64,000 nucleotides of DNA, from assembly GCF_000376105.1 (NCBI RefSeq), contig NZ_AQWM01000021.1, positions 1 to 64,000 on the forward strand. The letters are read 5' to 3'. Position 1 is the first letter of the stretch. Every line of letters begins with the position of its first letter. Position numbers and translations under genes: made by a program. This stretch comes from Asticcacaulis benevestitus DSM 16100 = ATCC BAA-896. Lineage in GTDB: Bacteria > Pseudomonadota > Alphaproteobacteria > Caulobacterales > Caulobacteraceae. The notes below the pieces were generated by a model, which did no database searches, had not been told where the DNA came from, and was given only the letters and a program-made list of their open reading frames with translations. Shown piece after piece: positions 3,567-45,730 of this stretch.

Positions 3567-4742
3567 TTGTGGACTGAATTACCTAAATTACAACTTAACT
3601 TACATGGTGTCTTGGTGTTTATAAATATCGCAATTGCTGTAACATTTTGTTGCGCGTTGTTAATTGTGTATCCATACGCAATATACCCGATAGTACTGCA
3701 TCTCCTGCCCAGTAAGCCGGTTGCCACTGACGCAGCATACAACTGTCAGGTGACGCTAGTTTTTTGTGCTTTTAATGAAGAGCGCTCGATTGCGCAGAAA
3801 CTGGCCAACATCGAAATGCTGAAAAAAAGGCATCCACAGCTCCAAGTGCTGGCATTCGATGATGGCTCTAAAGATAATACCGCTGAGCTTATCGCAGCGC
3901 GTCCGGACCTGGTTACATTGGTACGTGGTGCTGGAAGAAACGGAAAAGCCTACGGCATGAAGATCTTAGCTCGGATGTCGCAAGGAGACATAATTGTCTT
4001 TACCGACGCAAACGTGACTTTGAGAGAAGATGCTATTGCTCGGCTAATGCAGTATTATGCAGACCCTACAGTTGGAGGTGTATGCGGATCTCTCCGATAC
4101 TATGGAGAAGGTCAATCTTCGACCGCAGAAATCGGGTCCCTATACTGGAAGTTAGAAGAGCATCTTAAAAAGGAAGAGTCGCGAACTGGCAATGTGATGG
4201 GGGCCGATGGTTCCATTTTTTCCCTTAGACGTGAGCTTTATCCGGAATTTCCAGATACTGTCTTAGACGATTTAACCGTCTCAATGGCTGCCGTTTTCAG
4301 TGGGCATCGATTGATTAAAGCCGAAGATGTGATTGCTTTCGAGGCTTTGGTCGCAAAGCGGGGGGAGGAATTCGCTCGTAAAATGCGAATATCAACGCGC
4401 GCCTTTCATACACATTTGGTAATGCGTCCACAGCTTAAGAAAATGGCTGCTGCTGATAAATTTAAGTATGCTTCTAGAAAAATGATTAGATGGTTTGGCG
4501 GGCTTTTTTTAATTTTGGGTGTCTTTAGCGCCGTCCTAACAGCATTAAAAATCTACACAATGCTGGGTATTGGAATTGCACTTCTACTCGTGTTTACCGT
4601 CATGATCGGCATGAAGGCCACGCGTGGCCCACTTGCCGCAGCCATTGAGGTAGCAATGGCGCTCGTAGCTACACTTGTCGGCGTCTTTAAAGCAATGCGT
4701 GGGCAAACATTTACCATTTGGAATCCGGCGAAGTCTAGATGA
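3567..4742 (+). CDS. Membrane-bound GT2 glycosyltransferase
   Basis: About 390 residues with TTG at 3567 as the earliest start; the exact start is uncertain. An N-terminal membrane segment (about 15-45) is followed by a GT-A domain with FDDGSKDNT (about 97), FTDAN (about 144) and the ADGS...DTVLDDL region carrying the acidic catalytic residues. Then comes KRGEEFARKMRIS, in the place of the Q/RxxRW element of processive GT2s, and C-terminal membrane helices (about 305-375). The layout resembles hyaluronan/NodC-type or priming GT2 enzymes acting at the inner face of the cytoplasmic membrane. The stop overlaps the start of the decayed GT4 by 4 bp (ATGA), so the two were one transcription unit. 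Confidence 0.8.
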   Translation: MWTELPKLQLNLHGVLVFINIAIAVTFCCALLIVYPYAIYPIVLHLLPSKPVATDAAYNCQVTLVFCAFNEERSIAQKLANIEMLKKRHPQLQVLAFDDGSKDNTAELIAARPDLVTLVRGAGRNGKAYGMKILARMSQGDIIVFTDANVTLREDAIARLMQYYADPTVGGVCGSLRYYGEGQSSTAEIGSLYWKLEEHLKKEESRTGNVMGADGSIFSLRRELYPEFPDTVLDDLTVSMAAVFSGHRLIKAEDVIAFEALVAKRGEEFARKMRISTRAFHTHLVMRPQLKKMAAADKFKYASRKMIRWFGGLFLILGVFSAVLTALKIYTMLGIGIALLLVFTVMIGMKATRGPLAAAIEVAMALVATLVGVFKAMRGQTFTIWNPAKSR

Positions 4743-5440
4743 ACACGCTAGTTTCCGATGTTAAAGTCATGTCCTCTGGCCGCGCTAATAGCCCCCATAC
4801 TCGCTATCTAACAAAAATCTTTCCTTTTCTGCCGGCTTATGGTGAGCCCCACATGACGGAACGTGAAATCGGAGCCACAACGTCCCGCCGGATAGCGGCT
4901 TTGGGCGGTCGAGCGCCCCTTCAGACGCAGCAAATACTGAAGGATTGGTTTGAGTTGTCTTATGACCAGCTTCTCCGCTACCGTAACAAAATTAAAATTA
5001 CCGCCTCCATGAGCGCTACTCTACGAGACTTCATTTCTGTCAAGTATCCTAAAGCGAACCTACGTAGGCACGTGGAAGACATACAAGCCCTCCTCGCTAG
5101 ATGCAGAGCCGGTGTTGTGGATGGTTTGGTGGGAGGTGATCTTAAAGTTCGCCTGCTGACATATATGTTTAAGCGTCCCCGGATGCTGATATTGCAAGGA
5201 TCGGTGAGTGGGCTTCCCAGACATGCCAGGCGCGGCTTCTTGTCCGCCCATCACCTGCCCGCGTTGGCCGGCCTTGTTGTCAAGAGCAATGATGACTTCG
5301 CAGGTTTGAATGCCCTAGCATCGCCAAGCTTTCGAAGACCGCAGAGCCGAGTTAGACCAGGTCGTTCACAACCGCAAACTTCAACAAGCACTCGATTTGG
5401 CACATCCAATATAATCGCAATTTACGAAGGGGTTAATTAA
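4739..5440 (+). pseudogene. Decayed GT4 glycosyltransferase with in-frame internal deletion
   Basis: The 233-codon frame is a shortened relative of the GT4 at 545-1756. Its N-terminus keeps RYLTKIFPFLPAYGE (compare LYLTKLMPYGRAMAGD), then jumps to ALGGRAPLQTQQILKDWFEL (compare LFGGRESEQKRQILRDWLEI) and VEDIQALLARCRAGVVD. Roughly 190 residues in between, the whole N-terminal domain, are gone, and the last ~45 residues are unrelated low-complexity sequence. It is open but cannot form a GT-B enzyme. It ends at the first base of the rfbF start codon, so it may persist as a translated leader of that operon. Confidence 0.7.
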
Positions 5441-36709: not shown

Positions 36710-37194
36710 TGGTTTTCAGCGCGCCTTCGCGCATCATATGCTGTAGATCGCAGGCTAAGGTTGGGCGCGCCCGGCCCTTTGGCCGGCCCAAGCGCCTGAT
36801 CCGGATCGTCCAGGAAGAGCGCGTGGCGAAGCGCCAGGTGCAACGGGAGGCCTCCCGGCCCAAGGTGTCGCAAGAGGCGTCACAAAGGCTCGCCCATAGG
36901 CCGCATCGGTCCACAGATAAAGTGACTCCGCCAGGACGAGCTACGGGTGCGAAAGGGCTGTCCTGTGTCGCCTTTCGGCGGCGATTTTTCAAGGTCGACA
37001 TATCAGTATGTGGGCCTCAAGGCGACCGCGCGGGCATCTACAGGCGGACATCTTCGTAGTTTGTGGTTCTCGTGGCAGACATAGCCGTGGATTACGCCTT
37101 TTCAGGTGCTCTTCATCATGGATAGCTGTCTGAGGTCGCATCCGATGAGTAGCTGTTCCTTTAAAATGGGGTGAAAGGTGGCGACGACACGACA

Positions 37195-38212
37195 ACACGT
37201 GGACACACCCTCACCTTGATGCGCGAAACTACCTCCTTTCTTGTGGCGGTCAAGACGCCAACGTACCGACTCGTTGGGAGGGTAAAAACACTAGAAGTCT
37301 GACCGAAGCCGATCATTTTACCCACATGTGTGAACGTGGACACCTCTACACGTCTCACAACCCTCCCCGCCCCTGTCCCTTGATTTTTGGCGAAGATCGA
37401 CTCGGGTCTAGCGGCTATTCGGGCGTGCTGGCCCTTATGGCACAAGGCTTTGCAAACGCGTCTGGTACATTTCGTGGGCAGGTGGCACTGCCCTCGCCTG
37501 GTTCTTACCTGTCCACAACTTGTTCGGCCACCGCACCGCCTACGGCCCGTTGTTTATAGAATATTTACTAATTTAGCCGAATCATGCGCGTGGTACTGTC
37601 CACACGTGCCCTCGTCGTCAAGATGAAGTGTTGTAAAAGTAAAATTTCCTCAGGACGACACCTCGTCAAGATGGGTCGTCATCACGCGGACGGTTTGGCT
37701 TTTCGTGATGTCGGGAAGCGCACAGGTCGCCACGTTGATACGTGGAAGCGTGTGAGTTTCAAGTCGTCCTTATGGGGGCATGCGGACAGAGCTAGAAGAC
37801 AAGGAGTTTGGATGTCCTCGACTGGGCTTGTCCAATCCCCCACCTACCCACGTGTCGCCTAATCCACACGCTGGGCTGTTGCAATGAGGACTTTGTATCA
37901 TGTCGCCACGACCACACGATGAAAGCTCAACAGGCCTACCTGTGGACACGTTTGAATTGACCACACACCAACACCGCGTACGTGCGGACAGATCCTCAAG
38001 CGGACGCCTCTTACACGTGGACGCGCACGCAAAGCCCACAGGTGGACACGTCGGTACCTTAGGCACGTCCACGTGGCTACAGCTCTACGCTACAACACGA
38101 CCACACCTTTCTACGTCCGCGTATGAACTTGCCCACACGCCCTCTTACCAACACGTCCGCACGTCCAAGTCAGGACCTGATGGCGCGTCCATATACCAAA
38201 CTGTCCGCACGT
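37195..38212. repeat. Candidate centromere: array of GTCCRCACGT-like repeats before parA
   Basis: Repeated short motifs in both orientations. GTCCRCACGT or its complement ACGTGYGGAC occurs at 37598, 37980, 38155 and 38203. ACGTGGAC/GTCCACGT occurs at 37197, 37334, 38015 and 38067. GTGGACACGT occurs at 37942 and 38042, and ACGTCCGCGT at 38113. Weaker copies lie at 37511, 37684, 37780, 37863 and 38000. Eight lie within the last 270 bp before parA. Type Ib partition loci carry their centromere just upstream of parA, so this is the natural candidate. Function inferred from position and repetition. Confidence 0.65.
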
Positions 38213-38234
38213 CTCGTTATCCAAAGGCTTACAC

Positions 38235-38948
38235 ATGAAAACCCTGGCCATAGTCTCCCAGAAGGGCGGCGTGGGTAAAACCACGATAGCTGTCCATATC
38301 GCCGTCGCGGCTGCCCGCGCTGGCTACAGTGTCGCCATCATCGATCTCGACCCCCAGGCCACAGCCGCACAATGGGCGGACTGGCGCGGGGCAGGGGAGG
38401 CCAACCATGATCCAAACCCGGTCGTGGTCGCCGCCCCCCACGCACGCCTGGCACCCACCCTCAACGAAGCGGAAAAGATGGGAGTCGATCTCGTTATCCT
38501 CGATTCGCCCCCTGCGGCCGATAGCGCCGCCGTTGCGGCCGCCAGGCAGGCCGACTACGTGCTTATCCCGACCCGCGCCTCGGCCTTCGACCTCCACGCC
38601 ATCAAGACCACCGCCGAACTCGTGCGCGTGGCCCAGAAGCCGTCGGCCGTGTTGCTCAATGCCGTACCAGCACGCGCCCACAGCCTGATCGATGAAGTCG
38701 CCTCGGTCATCCATAGCCTTCAGCTGAATATTGCGCCGGTGTGCCTGGTTGATCGTGCCGCCCTGCGCCACGCCGTCATCAACGGCCAGACCGCCAGCGA
38801 ATACGAGCCGCTGGGTAAGGCGGCTGAAGAGGTGCGCGAACTCTACAAGTGGGTGTGTGGACGCCTGGACATGCCCGCATATCCAAAAGCCGACAAAAAA
38901 GCCCTCCGAATTTTCAAAGAAAAACAACCCTTTAAAGGTGCCGCATGA
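38235..38948 (+). CDS. parA: ParA-family partition ATPase (small, type Ib-like)
   Basis: 237 residues without an N-terminal DNA-binding domain, so of the ParF/short ParA type. SQKGGVGKTTIAVHIAVAA (8-26) is the deviant Walker A with the signature lysine; IIDLDPQATAAQWADWR is the A' region; LVILDSPP is Walker B. It would form ATP-dependent patterns on the nucleoid and move the replicon to daughter cells. It overlaps the partner gene by 4 bp (ATGA) and follows the repeat array directly. Confidence 0.92.
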   Translation: MKTLAIVSQKGGVGKTTIAVHIAVAAARAGYSVAIIDLDPQATAAQWADWRGAGEANHDPNPVVVAAPHARLAPTLNEAEKMGVDLVILDSPPAADSAAVAAARQADYVLIPTRASAFDLHAIKTTAELVRVAQKPSAVLLNAVPARAHSLIDEVASVIHSLQLNIAPVCLVDRAALRHAVINGQTASEYEPLGKAAEEVRELYKWVCGRLDMPAYPKADKKALRIFKEKQPFKGAA

Positions 38949-39350: not shown

Positions 39351-40277
39351 ATGTCCAAACGCCGCGATCCCAATGCCGAGTTAGATCTCTTTATACCTTT
39401 GCTCCACGATGTGGCGCTTAAGGATCAGCGCGAGACCATGGAACGGCCGTTTTTTTCGCTGCAAAAGCGAAAGCGGCTAAAGCCGATCGAGTACAAGAGC
39501 CCCGATGGCGAGGTCTGGGTCAAGGTGGAAGCCATGCCGGCCTATGGCATGGCCACCATCTGGGACGCCGATATTATCATTTGGGCGGCCTCAGCGCTGA
39601 ACCGTCTGAAGGCGCAGGGTGTGAACGATCTGCCCCGCACCCTGAAAACCACCACCTACGACCTTTTGCGCGCCATCAAGCGTGACACGGGTGGTAAAAG
39701 CTACGCTGAACTGCAGGCGGCGCTTCAAAGGCTGGAAACCACGTCCATTCGCACCTCCTTGCGTGCACCGACGCGCCGTCAGGAAGCGCAATTCGGCTGG
39801 CTGGACGGCTGGACGTTGGAAATTGACCCGGAAACCGGCCAGCCGCGTGGCATGACCCTAACCCTGTCCAACTGGGTGTATGAGGGCATCACCGGCGAAC
39901 GCTCGCTGTTGACCATGCACCAGGACTATTTCCTGCTCACAGGCGGGCTCGAGCGGGCACTTTACCGCATTGCCCGCAAGCATGCCGGTGTGCAGCCTGA
40001 GGGCTGGGTGTGCAGGATCGAGGTTTTGCACAACAAGACGGGCTCTGACAGTCCGCCCAAGGAATTTAATCGCATGTTGCGCAAAGTGGTCGAGCGCAAC
40101 CAGATGCCGGAATACGATATTTCCTTCACAAAGACGCAGGATGGCTCGCCTGCGGTGTTTATTATCTCGCGTTTGGCCCAGCTTGACGACCAGGTGGGTG
40201 GAGAATTGGCCCTGCTGAACGCCCAGGATCCGGATATCGCCCTATCTGCGCCTAAAAAGACCGGCAAACGGGCCTGA
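39351..40277 (+). CDS. repA: Replication initiator protein RepA (RPA family)
   Basis: 308 residues. The segment SLQKRKRLKPIEYKSPDGEVWVKVEA is followed by AMPAYGMATIWDADIIIWAA (about 63-82) and later SNWVYEGI and FLLTGGLERALYRIARKHAG, the conserved blocks of the alphaproteobacterial plasmid/chromid RPA-type initiator (winged-helix DNA-binding). It would bind the iterons immediately downstream and open the origin. Only 52 bp separate it from the partition pair, with no terminator, so replication and partition genes may be co-expressed. Length is normal for the family. Confidence 0.9.
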   Translation: MSKRRDPNAELDLFIPLLHDVALKDQRETMERPFFSLQKRKRLKPIEYKSPDGEVWVKVEAMPAYGMATIWDADIIIWAASALNRLKAQGVNDLPRTLKTTTYDLLRAIKRDTGGKSYAELQAALQRLETTSIRTSLRAPTRRQEAQFGWLDGWTLEIDPETGQPRGMTLTLSNWVYEGITGERSLLTMHQDYFLLTGGLERALYRIARKHAGVQPEGWVCRIEVLHNKTGSDSPPKEFNRMLRKVVERNQMPEYDISFTKTQDGSPAVFIISRLAQLDDQVGGELALLNAQDPDIALSAPKKTGKRA

Positions 40278-40313
40278 ATCCTTCATCTCCAAGGGTTTGA
40301 CGAGGATAAGCAC

Positions 40314-40749
40314 GGGGTATCGCACACCCGAAAGCCCTGTAAAGCCTTACACATAAGGGAAGGGCAGGCGGCGACATCTTGGGAATCATCGGGGTATCAC
40401 ACACCAAATGAAGGTTAATGAAGCGTTAACGTGTACTTTAAGCTGGGTCAGACCCGCCAAACGACTCGCCAAAGAGGCACATTCAGGCCTTCGGGGGATT
40501 ACACACCCTGCAGATAGGGCCAAGGCCGCGATAAGATTCGCGAAAGACAGATTTGACGCCTTCATCGGGGGATCGCACACCGCCATTCCCCCCTCTTATG
40601 ACCCTAGCTCTGTGGATCAATTTGGGGATAACTCGTCCAGGCGAAGCGCTCGACGGCTTATACCACGGGGGAACGCCCACTAAAGCCTCGGGGGATGACA
40701 CACGCCTGAAGCGGGGTTTCACCCACCAAAGCACGGGGTATCTCACACC
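40314..40749 (+). repeat. Iteron array, eight copies of a 15-mer
   Basis: Consensus GGGGKATCRCACACC. Copies at 40314-40328, 40391-40405, 40493-40507, 40567-40581, 40667-40681 (weak), 40690-40704, 40713-40727 and 40735-40749; all in one orientation. The first seven bases vary least with the CACACC tail. Spacing is irregular upstream and near 22-23 bp for the last four, so the last four face the same side of the helix. Confidence 0.88.
40415..40429. promoter_or_regulatory. Perfect CtrA box within the iteron origin
   Basis: TTAATGAAGCGTTAA fits TTAA-N7-TTAA exactly and lies between iterons 2 and 3. In Caulobacter CtrA binding at such boxes in the chromosomal origin blocks initiation; the same control here is inference. 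Confidence 0.6.
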
Positions 40750-41012
40750 CAAGTCCTCCGTAAAGCCCTGAAACATAACAAAAAAACCGCCTTCCGATTC
40801 GGCTTAACTTACTTAAGGATTCTTATAAGACTCTCTTTAACCCTTAAGGGATCGGGTTACCGTGTAAAGGGCGGGTCTCTGGCCTTAGAGAGGGCCAGCC
40901 CCGCCTCAATCTGAATGCGGTGTGCGGAATGTCTGATTACATTTGACTCTACGAAGCTTCCCGACCTAGTGTTTGGGCGCATTCTAAGACGGGTGTGTGA
41001 TAAGAGGCGAAC

Positions 41013-43474: not shown

Positions 43475-44414
43475 TATTCAAGCCCTGGCCGAGCGCTTGC
43501 GCGCCGAGATCGCCAAGGTCATCATCGGCCAGAAGGATACGGTCGACCTGTTGCTGACGGCGCTGTTTTCCGGCGGTCATATCCTGCTCGAAGGTCCGCC
43601 GGGCACGGCCAAGACCTTGCTAGCCAAGGTGTTTTGCCAGTCCTTGAGCCTCAAATTTGGCCGCATCCAGTTCACACCGGACATGCTGCCGGGCGATGTC
43701 CTGGGCTCTAACCTTTTCAACTTCCAGACATCGAGCTTCACCCTGACCAAGGGACCTATTTTCTGCGATCTGCTGCTGGCCGATGAAATCAACCGCACGC
43801 CGCCGAAGACACAGGCCGCCTTGCTGGAGGCGATGCAGGAGCATTCGGTGACGCTCGACGGTGTGCGCCATGACCTCGGTTCGCACTTCACCGTCATCGC
43901 CACGCAGAACCCCATCGAACAACAAGGCACCTATCCGTTGCCGGAAGCCCAGCTTGACCGGTTCTTGTTCAAGCATGTGCTGGGTTACCCTTCGCTTGAG
44001 GAAGAAAAGCGCATTGTCGATACATCCGGCAATGCGGCCGCCAGCGATCCGGCGACCGCCGGCGTCGGGGCGGTGTTGAGCGCAGCGTCACTGGCCGAGG
44101 CCATCCGCGTGGTCTCGACTGTCAAGCTCAACGACGCCAATCTGAACTACATTGTGGCCCTGATCCGCGCCACCCGTGAGACGCCGCAGCTTTCAGTCGG
44201 GGCTAGCCCACGCGCCGGCGCCTTGCTGGCGCGCGCCGCCCGTGCCCGCGCTGTGCTGGATGGCCGCGACTATGTGCTGCCTGATGACATCAAGGCGCTC
44301 TATCCGGCCTCTATGCGTCACCGCGTCCTGTTGTCGCCATCGGCTGAGATCGAGGGCGAGAGCGTCGATCGCGTATTGCAGGATCTGCTTGAGCGTATCG
44401 AGATCCCGCGCTGA
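43461..44414 (+). CDS. MoxR-family AAA+ ATPase
   Basis: 317 residues from GTG 43461 with GGAG 8 bp upstream. Walker A is [12 protein letters not shown] (about 44-55), Walker [24 protein letters not shown], sensor 1 in [24 protein letters not shown], and sensor 2 near [13 protein letters not shown]. MoxR ATPases act as chaperones that mature or activate partner proteins, often with DUF58/VWA proteins. Fully co-transcribed with both neighbours, with stop/start overlap to the DUF58 gene. Confidence 0.95.
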
Positions 44415-45730
44415 TGAACATCTATCCCACCCCCCGTCTTCTGGTGTTGTTGGCCTTAAGCGTGCCGGTCGCGCTCGGTGTCGGCATCTTTGCGCCGGGT
44501 GTGTGGGCGTGGGTGCCGCTGGTGGCGGGGCTGTGCTTTGTCGCTGCCCTGCTCGATGGGCTGTTTGCGCCGGTCGGGGAGGGCCTGACCTTCCAGATGT
44601 CTGCGCCCGAGACGCTCGGCGTCGGGCGCACTGTGGAGGTACCCTTTACGGCGCGTTTCACGCGCTGGCGGCAGCCGGGCCTGATCGAGCTGCGGTTGGG
44701 TCTGGGGCGCGTGCTGGCGGCGTCTGAGTACCCGCGCAGACTGGTACGCCAGGACGGCGCCTTTGGCGGCACCTTGAGCCTGAAAGCCACGGCACGGGGC
44801 CGTGGTGAGATTGAGGCGGGCTTTGTGCGCTGGCAGGGCTTCGCCGGCCTGGTCTATGTCCAGAAAAAGCTCACGCTCGATCACGAGATCGTCGTTACCC
44901 CGGATATTCACGGCGTCGAGCAGGATGCTGCCGATTTGTTTTCGCTCGATAACATCTACGGTGTGCGGGTTCAGAACCAGCTTTACAACGGCTCGGAATA
45001 CCATGCGCTGCGTGAATACGATGCCAGCCAGGATCACCGCCGTATCGACTGGCGGTCCTCGGCGCGTCACATGAAGCTGTTCAGCCGCGAATATCAGGCC
45101 GAGCGTAACCACCATATCGTGCTGGCCTACGATACTGGCCGTCTGATGGGCGAACCTCTGGCGGGCCTGAAACGCCTCGATCGCGCCATCTATGCCGGCC
45201 TGTTGCTCGGCTATACGGCGCTTAAAATCGGCGACAATGTCCGCACCTTCGCCTTTGCCTCCAAGCCCTATCATGTGGCGCCGGCGGTGACCGGCATCCA
45301 TGGCTTCAATGCGCTGAAATATCAGTTGTCCGCGCTGGAAGACACGCCTGAGGAATCCAACCACACCCTGGCCCTGGCCGATCTCAACGCCAAGGTGGCG
45401 CGGCGTTCGCTGATCATCCTGTTCAGCGATTTTATCGATGAGATCAGCGCCGACCTGATGGTGGAAAGCCTCAATCGCCTGTCGAAGAAGCATTTGGTGC
45501 TGTTCGTCGCTTTCAAGGACGAGGTGGTTGAGGACCTGATGACACGTCCACCTGTAGAACCTGAGGACGTGACAAAGGCGGTGTTCGCCAAGCGCCTGTC
45601 AGACCAGCGCGAGCGGGTGTTTGCGCAGCTACGCCGCCAGGGCGTCGAGGTGTTAGAAACCCCGACGGAACTGTTGGCGACGTCGATTGTCAGCAAATAT
45701 CTGGCGCTCAAACGCGCCGATCGCCTGTAG
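44414..45730 (+). CDS. DUF58 domain protein (MoxR partner, VWA-like)
   Basis: 438 residues. Two membrane helices at the N-terminus (about 9-45), then a beta-rich region and the DUF58 signature YNGSEYHALREYDASQDHRRIDW followed by WRSSARHMKLFSREYQAERN (about 192-235). A VWA-like segment includes IVLAYDTGRLM and SLIILFSDFIDEIS. It is the standard co-operonic partner of MoxR ATPase, probably exposed to the periplasm or anchored in the membrane. Role in envelope stress or protein maturation is inferred from the family. Confidence 0.9.
   Translation: MNIYPTPRLLVLLALSVPVALGVGIFAPGVWAWVPLVAGLCFVAALLDGLFAPVGEGLTFQMSAPETLGVGRTVEVPFTARFTRWRQPGLIELRLGLGRVLAASEYPRRLVRQDGAFGGTLSLKATARGRGEIEAGFVRWQGFAGLVYVQKKLTLDHEIVVTPDIHGVEQDAADLFSLDNIYGVRVQNQLYNGSEYHALREYDASQDHRRIDWRSSARHMKLFSREYQAERNHHIVLAYDTGRLMGEPLAGLKRLDRAIYAGLLLGYTALKIGDNVRTFAFASKPYHVAPAVTGIHGFNALKYQLSALEDTPEESNHTLALADLNAKVARRSLIILFSDFIDEISADLMVESLNRLSKKHLVLFVAFKDEVVEDLMTRPPVEPEDVTKAVFAKRLSDQRERVFAQLRRQGVEVLETPTELLATSIVSKYLALKRADRL

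Follow-up and report, generated by a model that had tools for sequence, protein, structure and literature searches.

The window, the whole stretch of DNA analysed here, comprises 64,000 nucleotides (C21:1-64000) of a host genome of 4.99 Mb assembled in 100 contigs. It carries three genes in a row and a set of iterons:

38235..38948, + strand: parA, encoding a short Walker-type ATPase of 237 amino acids
38945..39298, + strand: gene of a 117-residue ribbon-helix-helix (RHH) partner (Pfam PF20605, E = 2.8e-23, 82.2 bits, cut-off 27.2)
39351..40277, + strand: rpa, gene of the RPA replication initiator (Pfam PF10134, E = 3.4e-75)
40309..40749, + strand: likely oriV with seven 20-nt iterons of type CGGGGKATCRCACACC (repeat search, family D1, 7 copies)

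ParA starts with MKTLAIVSQKGGVGKTT and matches the Pfam families AAA_31 (3.6e-20), CbiA (5.8e-18) and VirC1 (3.7e-9); above the cut-off, only ATPase-type families are returned. Against the NCBIfam model NF041546 (ParA family partition ATPase), it scores 172.6 bits and does not reach the cut-off of 180: the protein appears related to this family, yet falls outside of it by score. Several traits are those of a type Ib partition module: the ParA is short, its Walker A box is deviant and an N-terminal DNA-binding domain is absent, the gene of the small RHH protein lies downstream and its start overlaps the end of parA by 4 nt, and short direct and inverted repeats precede the operon. The PF10134 initiator with iterons close by is typical of an RPA-type replicon. 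In the closest relative, G022, whose ParA is 98% identical, the contig with the module is 618,632 bp long and one of three in the assembly, and a neighbour gene of the module is common to the window and G022 (94% identical). Given the size of this contig and the shared neighbour, the replicon bearing the module is large in G022.

The DNA in front of parA had been described in the first-pass annotation as a large candidate centromere at 37195-38212, made of irregularly arranged GTCCRCACGT motifs. The motif is real: the 64-kb window contains four exact copies, all of them in the array. Its core, GTCCRC, has 16 copies in 37001-38234, where its frequency in the rest of the window predicts 1.14. 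Fifteen of these copies fall inside the claimed interval, both orientations are seen, and the reported crowding toward parA is confirmed, with 9 of the 16 copies in the final 300 bp. The interval is also devoid of any convincing gene, as had been stated: all six frames of 37552-37951 contain stops, here and in G022, and a Pfam scan of two open reading frames in the interval gave no match above the curated cut-off.

The array is not irregular, however: it is a lattice whose step is exactly 8 bp and whose register is kept. The unit, obtained with a cyclic hidden Markov model (HMM), is YGTCCACR, palindromic apart from its CC/GG center. As the outer letters are palindromic and the center reads either CC or GG, the octamers run in both orientations within one register. 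The copies listed at first are just the best units of the lattice, and the 10-bp motif is not the unit: it corresponds to one octamer plus parts of a neighboring octamer. The limits overlap with those proposed, and a held-out HMM, with the window and G022 excluded from its training (10 of the 12 kept loci), extends the set to 37182-38225 plus 38840-38895:

37182..37213, no strand: isolated cluster of 4 octamers (held-out HMM, posterior 1.0)
37319..37350, no strand: isolated cluster of 4 octamers (HMM, posterior 0.99)
37589..37948, no strand: main block of 45 contiguous octamers in one register, both orientations (HMM, phase scan, gap-free against G022)
37975..38006, no strand: cluster of 4 octamers (HMM, posterior 0.98)
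38033..38056, no strand: cluster of 3 octamers (HMM, posterior 0.95)
38058..38225, no strand: second long block, 21 contiguous octamers (HMM, posterior 1.0)
38840..38895, no strand: short lattice of 7 octamers inside parA at its 3' end, ahead of the partner gene (HMM, posterior 1.0)

The held-out model counts about 81 octamers upstream of parA, 45 of them unbroken. The 45-octamer block lies at a distance of about 290-650 bp from parA, and the 21-octamer block stops ~10 bp short of the parA start; in the phase scan, the register differs from about 38041 to 38200. With the held-out model, 37000-38234 scores +115.3 nats, while 60 first-order Markov (dinucleotide) resamples of the array reach a maximum of -1.6 and the runner-up 1235-bp stretch of the window 10.9. 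An eight-phase base table of 37501-38234 gives a chi-square z of 12.5 at period 8; by the same phase test, periods 5-7 and 9-14 give z values of at most 2.1 (0.6 for period 7). The array DNA has a GC content of about 53-56%. Two separate phases of the table are 66-67% A+T and the phases between them 34-43%, leaving no AT-rich run.

A 16-bp two-octamer pattern with up to two mismatches has 148 matches genome-wide, against 144 for the reversed control; since the two counts are nearly equal, this search is uninformative on the uniqueness of the lattice in the genome. The octamer HMM covered the 64-kb window and the fetched loci. In the window, it also calls a lone run of four octamers at 45529-45560 (posterior 1.0), within the reading frame 44414-45730, which may be due to chance. 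BLAST of the array against a plasmid collection yielded no hit at E 0.01.

Against G022, the segment 37552-37951 (400 bp) aligns at 74% identity, with 103 substitutions and not a single gap, in this one pair of genomes and with the block ends placed by the aligner; the rest of the upstream DNA is mostly unalignable, apart from its final 62 bp and some shorter segments. The oriV region, located on the same replicon and mostly non-coding over its 823 bp, served as a control: it shows 120 mismatches and 10 one-base gaps. From this control, on stretches cut by eye, the lattice should hold ~8.6 gaps, where none is observed (Fisher p 0.0027). The substitutions are spread evenly over the three codon phases (35, 33 and 35) and no octamer phase is visibly spared (chi-square p 0.76). 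With 26% difference in its core, compared to 27% at the third codon positions of parA (65 of 237), the lattice diverges about as synonymous sites do. Both nonetheless fit the held-out model equally well, with a mean of 3.15 bits in the window and 3.14 in G022, whereas 103 random substitutions lower this mean to 0.75 on average (sd 0.40), the best of 2000 trials retaining 2.06. Judged from these sequences, the register looks held by selection.

Seventeen upstream regions were collected from related loci. The near-duplicates L063, L067, L068, L071 and L072 were left out of motif discovery and HMM training, for which 12 regions were kept; autocorrelation used 13 (with L072). Motif discovery upstream of parA in the 12 loci kept growing into the 8-bp repeat. 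In the 900 bp preceding parA, the autocorrelation shows peaks at lags 8, 16, 24, 32, 40, 48 and 56, with combined z values of 12.6, 11.7, 8.7, 8.6, 7.9, 9.3 and 7.6 over the 13 partly related loci; the lag-8 signal is weak in four of them (L062, L064, L065 and L066, -0.6 to 2.2). The 12 regions form six groups, between which just two matches of 22-25 bp align. By this model, the same lattice precedes parA in all eight long-fetched parA-rhh-rpa loci of Asticcacaulis and family f3 (the window and L040-L046), so conservation in related par loci, one of the checks proposed beforehand, holds within the close family. In L042, a training-set locus, the model finds a single 672-bp run of 84 octamers. 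The HMM scores of the relatives are not independent evidence, since most of these loci were in the training set; the autocorrelation is.

Among 86 parA loci (five with less than 1000 bp upstream), a lattice score of at least 4 is reached by 24 of the 45 with an adjoining RHH gene versus 1 of the 41 without. The single exception, L073, does encode an RHH protein (PF20605, 1.4e-12). Counted by ParA cluster (70% identity, single linkage, 10 clusters from 80 genome-contig loci), the association is lost, with 3 of 8 clusters with RHH versus 0 of 2 without (Fisher p 1), and the per-locus figure is for this reason not relied on.

In the wider family, conservation is partial: the 8-bp step recurs in part of the loci, but the words differ. 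PF20605-type partners also accompany ParA in Sphingomonadaceae, Acetobacteraceae, Rhizobiales and cyanobacteria, again as parA followed by a small RHH gene, and in these groups the 120 bp adjoining parA upstream usually carry the strongest signal. Eight is the top step before parA in 14 of 21 hand-picked RHH loci of other groups, the signal often being confined to those 120 bp and in several loci weak (3.5-4.3); it is not the top step in the remaining seven (L101, L104, L112, L118, L122, L128 and L130). The octamer word, compared on stretches cut by eye, varies by group, examples being TGCCAGCA (Sphingomonas, L098) and CGCTCTCA (Komagataeibacter, L143). The latter locus, on Komagataeibacter nataicola pKNA08, has thirteen tandem CGCTCTCA octamers at ~4233-4336, before a related parA: the word is different, the step is 8.

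The lattice in the 3' end of parA overlaps coding sequence. The last 120 nt of the gene score 14.9, compared to a maximum of 12.9 in 1000 synonymous recodings; as the mean of this null is 5.2, the peptide itself favors a lattice. Similar parA-tail lattices are called by the HMM in many relatives. The synonymous test was applied to 15 loci with a tail lattice and 4 without: the recoding fraction is at most 0.016 in 13 of the 15, the misses being L097 (0.089) and L112 (0.055), and the four others are at chance (0.39-0.55). Further lattices separate the RHH gene from the RPA gene in L042 (6447-6518), L044 (3506-3569), L045 (3756-3811) and L046 (5666-5721), and directly after the RHH gene in L067-L072. 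Those near initiator genes span about 7-12 octamers and stand before, or towards, the initiator gene, which suggests that replication, too, may be under the control of the RHH protein. In two Caulobacter plasmids (L140 and L141), the RHH gene immediately precedes the RPA gene, with no parA next to it in an incomplete gene table; there, the RHH protein may accompany the initiator.

The iterons of the likely oriV lie downstream of rpa, and their motif is unlike the octamer. They are followed by an AT-rich stretch near 40780-40860. The genome contains two other RPA replicons. Before the parA of L048 (contig C13), the model finds no octamer lattice; L047 (contig C63), whose RPA protein is 64% identical to that of the window, has one weak octamer call at 5166-5197 (posterior 0.66) and no octamer lattice before parA. 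Directly before its own parA (~1350-1620), L047 has a lattice with an 11-bp step (z 16.0) and words like TAGCTAGC, with a counterpart on contig C3 of G022 (L147, before 1606; 11-bp step, z 13.7). The 126-residue partner of the 11-bp-lattice replicon matches no Pfam family at E 0.01. On C13 (reverse complement 3900-4500), there is a weaker 10-bp signal, with a z of 6.3 that is the best of many windows and periods; it is located about 400-600 bp upstream of parA, amid longer direct repeats.

In the AlphaFold monomer of the RHH partner, the C-terminal domain is of high confidence, with block means above 90 for residues 71-110, and residues 1-60 are of low confidence. The C-terminal part is modeled as two helices, with no assigned beta-strand. 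The closest folds of this domain are those of the RHH proteins StnY, Arc, ORF56, CopG and ParG, all of them weak matches (best E 0.12); a PDB sequence search with the RHH alignment returned nothing below E 0.12. The low-confidence N-terminus includes a candidate arginine motif, RPSL, exact in 11 of 20 aligned relatives and replaced or absent in nine. An arginine is found at this position in 13, PSL follows a lysine or alanine in four of the 20, and L112 and L119 have no such motif.

The lattice, its held register, its placement in parA-RHH-RPA loci and the iterons set apart from it come directly out of the computation. Type Ib modules have a centromere of direct and inverted repeats upstream of the operon, to which the RHH protein binds, also acting as a repressor (PMC5016525). 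With a probability of roughly 80%, 37182-38225 serves a type Ib module on an RPA-type secondary replicon as its centromere (parS) and operator; the two functions are assigned to one array because both the type Ib layout and the logic of plasmid pSM19035 fit. A centromere read by the RHH partner of ParA, proposed before, is the best-supported reading, its irregular layout being the part given up. As a centromere, the lattice would be unusually long and contiguous for type Ib. An operator function in addition to that of centromere is likely, including the block at 38058-38225.

We infer RHH binding to the lattice, filament formation and a function in partition, as follows. One RHH dimer would occupy each octamer (YGTCCACR, in either orientation), gripping it through the beta-ribbon. 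On abutting octamers in register, the dimers would stand side by side and form a continuous filament along the DNA. Such a filament would offer many flexible partner N-termini to DNA-bound ParA and trigger its ATPase, and this stimulation would move the replicon into the daughter cells. At the parA-side end of the lattice and at the lattice in the parA 3' end, the partner would repress its own operon. We know of no RHH centromere protein that spreads along DNA like the CTP-using ParB.

An array used solely as an extended operator, with the RHH protein coating it to repress parA-rhh-rpa and partition taking place elsewhere or not at all, would agree with the 21-octamer block reaching to ~10 bp from parA, and with the short lattices in the parA 3' end, between the RHH and RPA genes and after the RHH gene, which are placed as a regulator needs them. 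This is nevertheless unlikely: a few units suffice for an operator, yet 45 contiguous octamers hold their register about 290-650 bp upstream, and type Ib systems put such arrays to both uses (PMC5016525). That the array serves as a replication origin, or as boxes for the initiator or DnaA, is very improbable. An RPA gene is nearby, but the reading as oriV or DnaA boxes was rejected, since seven iterons with another motif occupy 40309-40749, and the replicon with the 64%-identical RPA lacks, by the model, an octamer lattice before parA. The sequence TGTCCACA resembles half of a DnaA box, which speaks for an origin; a contiguous 8-bp lattice is not known as an iteron layout, which speaks against it.

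Scarcely any weight is left for a pattern without function, arising from composition, a hidden coding repeat or recent tandem duplication. Single octamers are indeed very degenerate, and the two-octamer pattern is hardly more frequent than its control. Against this, the resampled controls and the other periods fail, and a composition artefact was rejected on the gap between the resamples and the array itself (-1.6 versus +115.3 nats). A coding repeat was likewise rejected, because 8 is not a multiple of 3 and every frame has stops, in both genomes. A tandem duplication would decay under substitution; instead, the fit is kept in G022.

Beyond the centromere and operator assignment, a broader proposal can be made, tentatively and with the odds rather against it. 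The reach of the partition complex on this large replicon would, in place of protein spreading, be written into the DNA, as an in-register lattice of ~80 dimer sites. The step (8, 11 or another) together with the word would serve as a compatibility code between co-resident replicons, and part of the lattice would lie over the parA 3' end, so that the ATPase gene carries its own piece of centromere. The locus offers a natural case in which evolution appears to hold the register and average fit of a centromere, not its exact sequence. It opens a direct test of partition strength against the number and continuity of RHH sites, and a test of whether differing steps stop sister replicons from interfering with each other. 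In unannotated replicons, autocorrelation upstream of parA is a simple finder of such centromeres.

Octamer arrays in this family are described in none of the titles and abstract beginnings listed from a mostly open-licence literature. Each component is of a known kind; a centromere of this class with ~80 octamers, uninterrupted runs of at least 45 units and a held register are apparently undescribed, and so are a piece overprinted on parA and differing steps in the replicons of one cell. Tandem short boxes bound by RHH proteins or by partners of short ParAs are known from MetJ (8-bp met boxes), pCXC100 (9-bp repeats) and pTAR (7+3-bp repeats). These systems, likened here by layout alone, have from a few to about 13 boxes, as opposed to ~81 in the window. 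In parH, the centromere of TP228, the step is perhaps 8 bp (4+4).

The TP228 system (parH/ParF/ParG) resembles the module in its short ParA, its RHH partner with an N-terminus that is flexible, as it may be here, and its upstream centromere of degenerate units, the centromere-binding protein being also a repressor (PMC7308502, PMC5016525 and PMC5389482). The array is not of the parH type, however: parH is described as tetramer boxes separated by AT-rich spacers, whereas the octamers of the lattice abut, in DNA of about 53-56% GC.

Closest in arrangement is parS of pSM19035, with its omega protein and ParA delta. There too, contiguous short units run in both orientations within one register, the ParA is short, and a small RHH protein doubles as repressor at several arrays (PMC9499535 and PMC5016525). 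At least four abutting heptads are required for the bound protein to fully activate ParA, and gaps abolish this effect (PMC9499535); omega covers parS alone (PMC5016525). The step is 7 bp in pSM19035 and 8 bp in the lattice, which is not made of heptads. The pSM19035 genes each have their own promoter (PMC5016525), whereas parA and its partner gene overlap in the window. The parS sites of pSM19035 comprise 9, 7 and 10 units (PMC5016525), compared to contiguous runs of 45 and 21 octamers here, and of 84 in L042 by the model.
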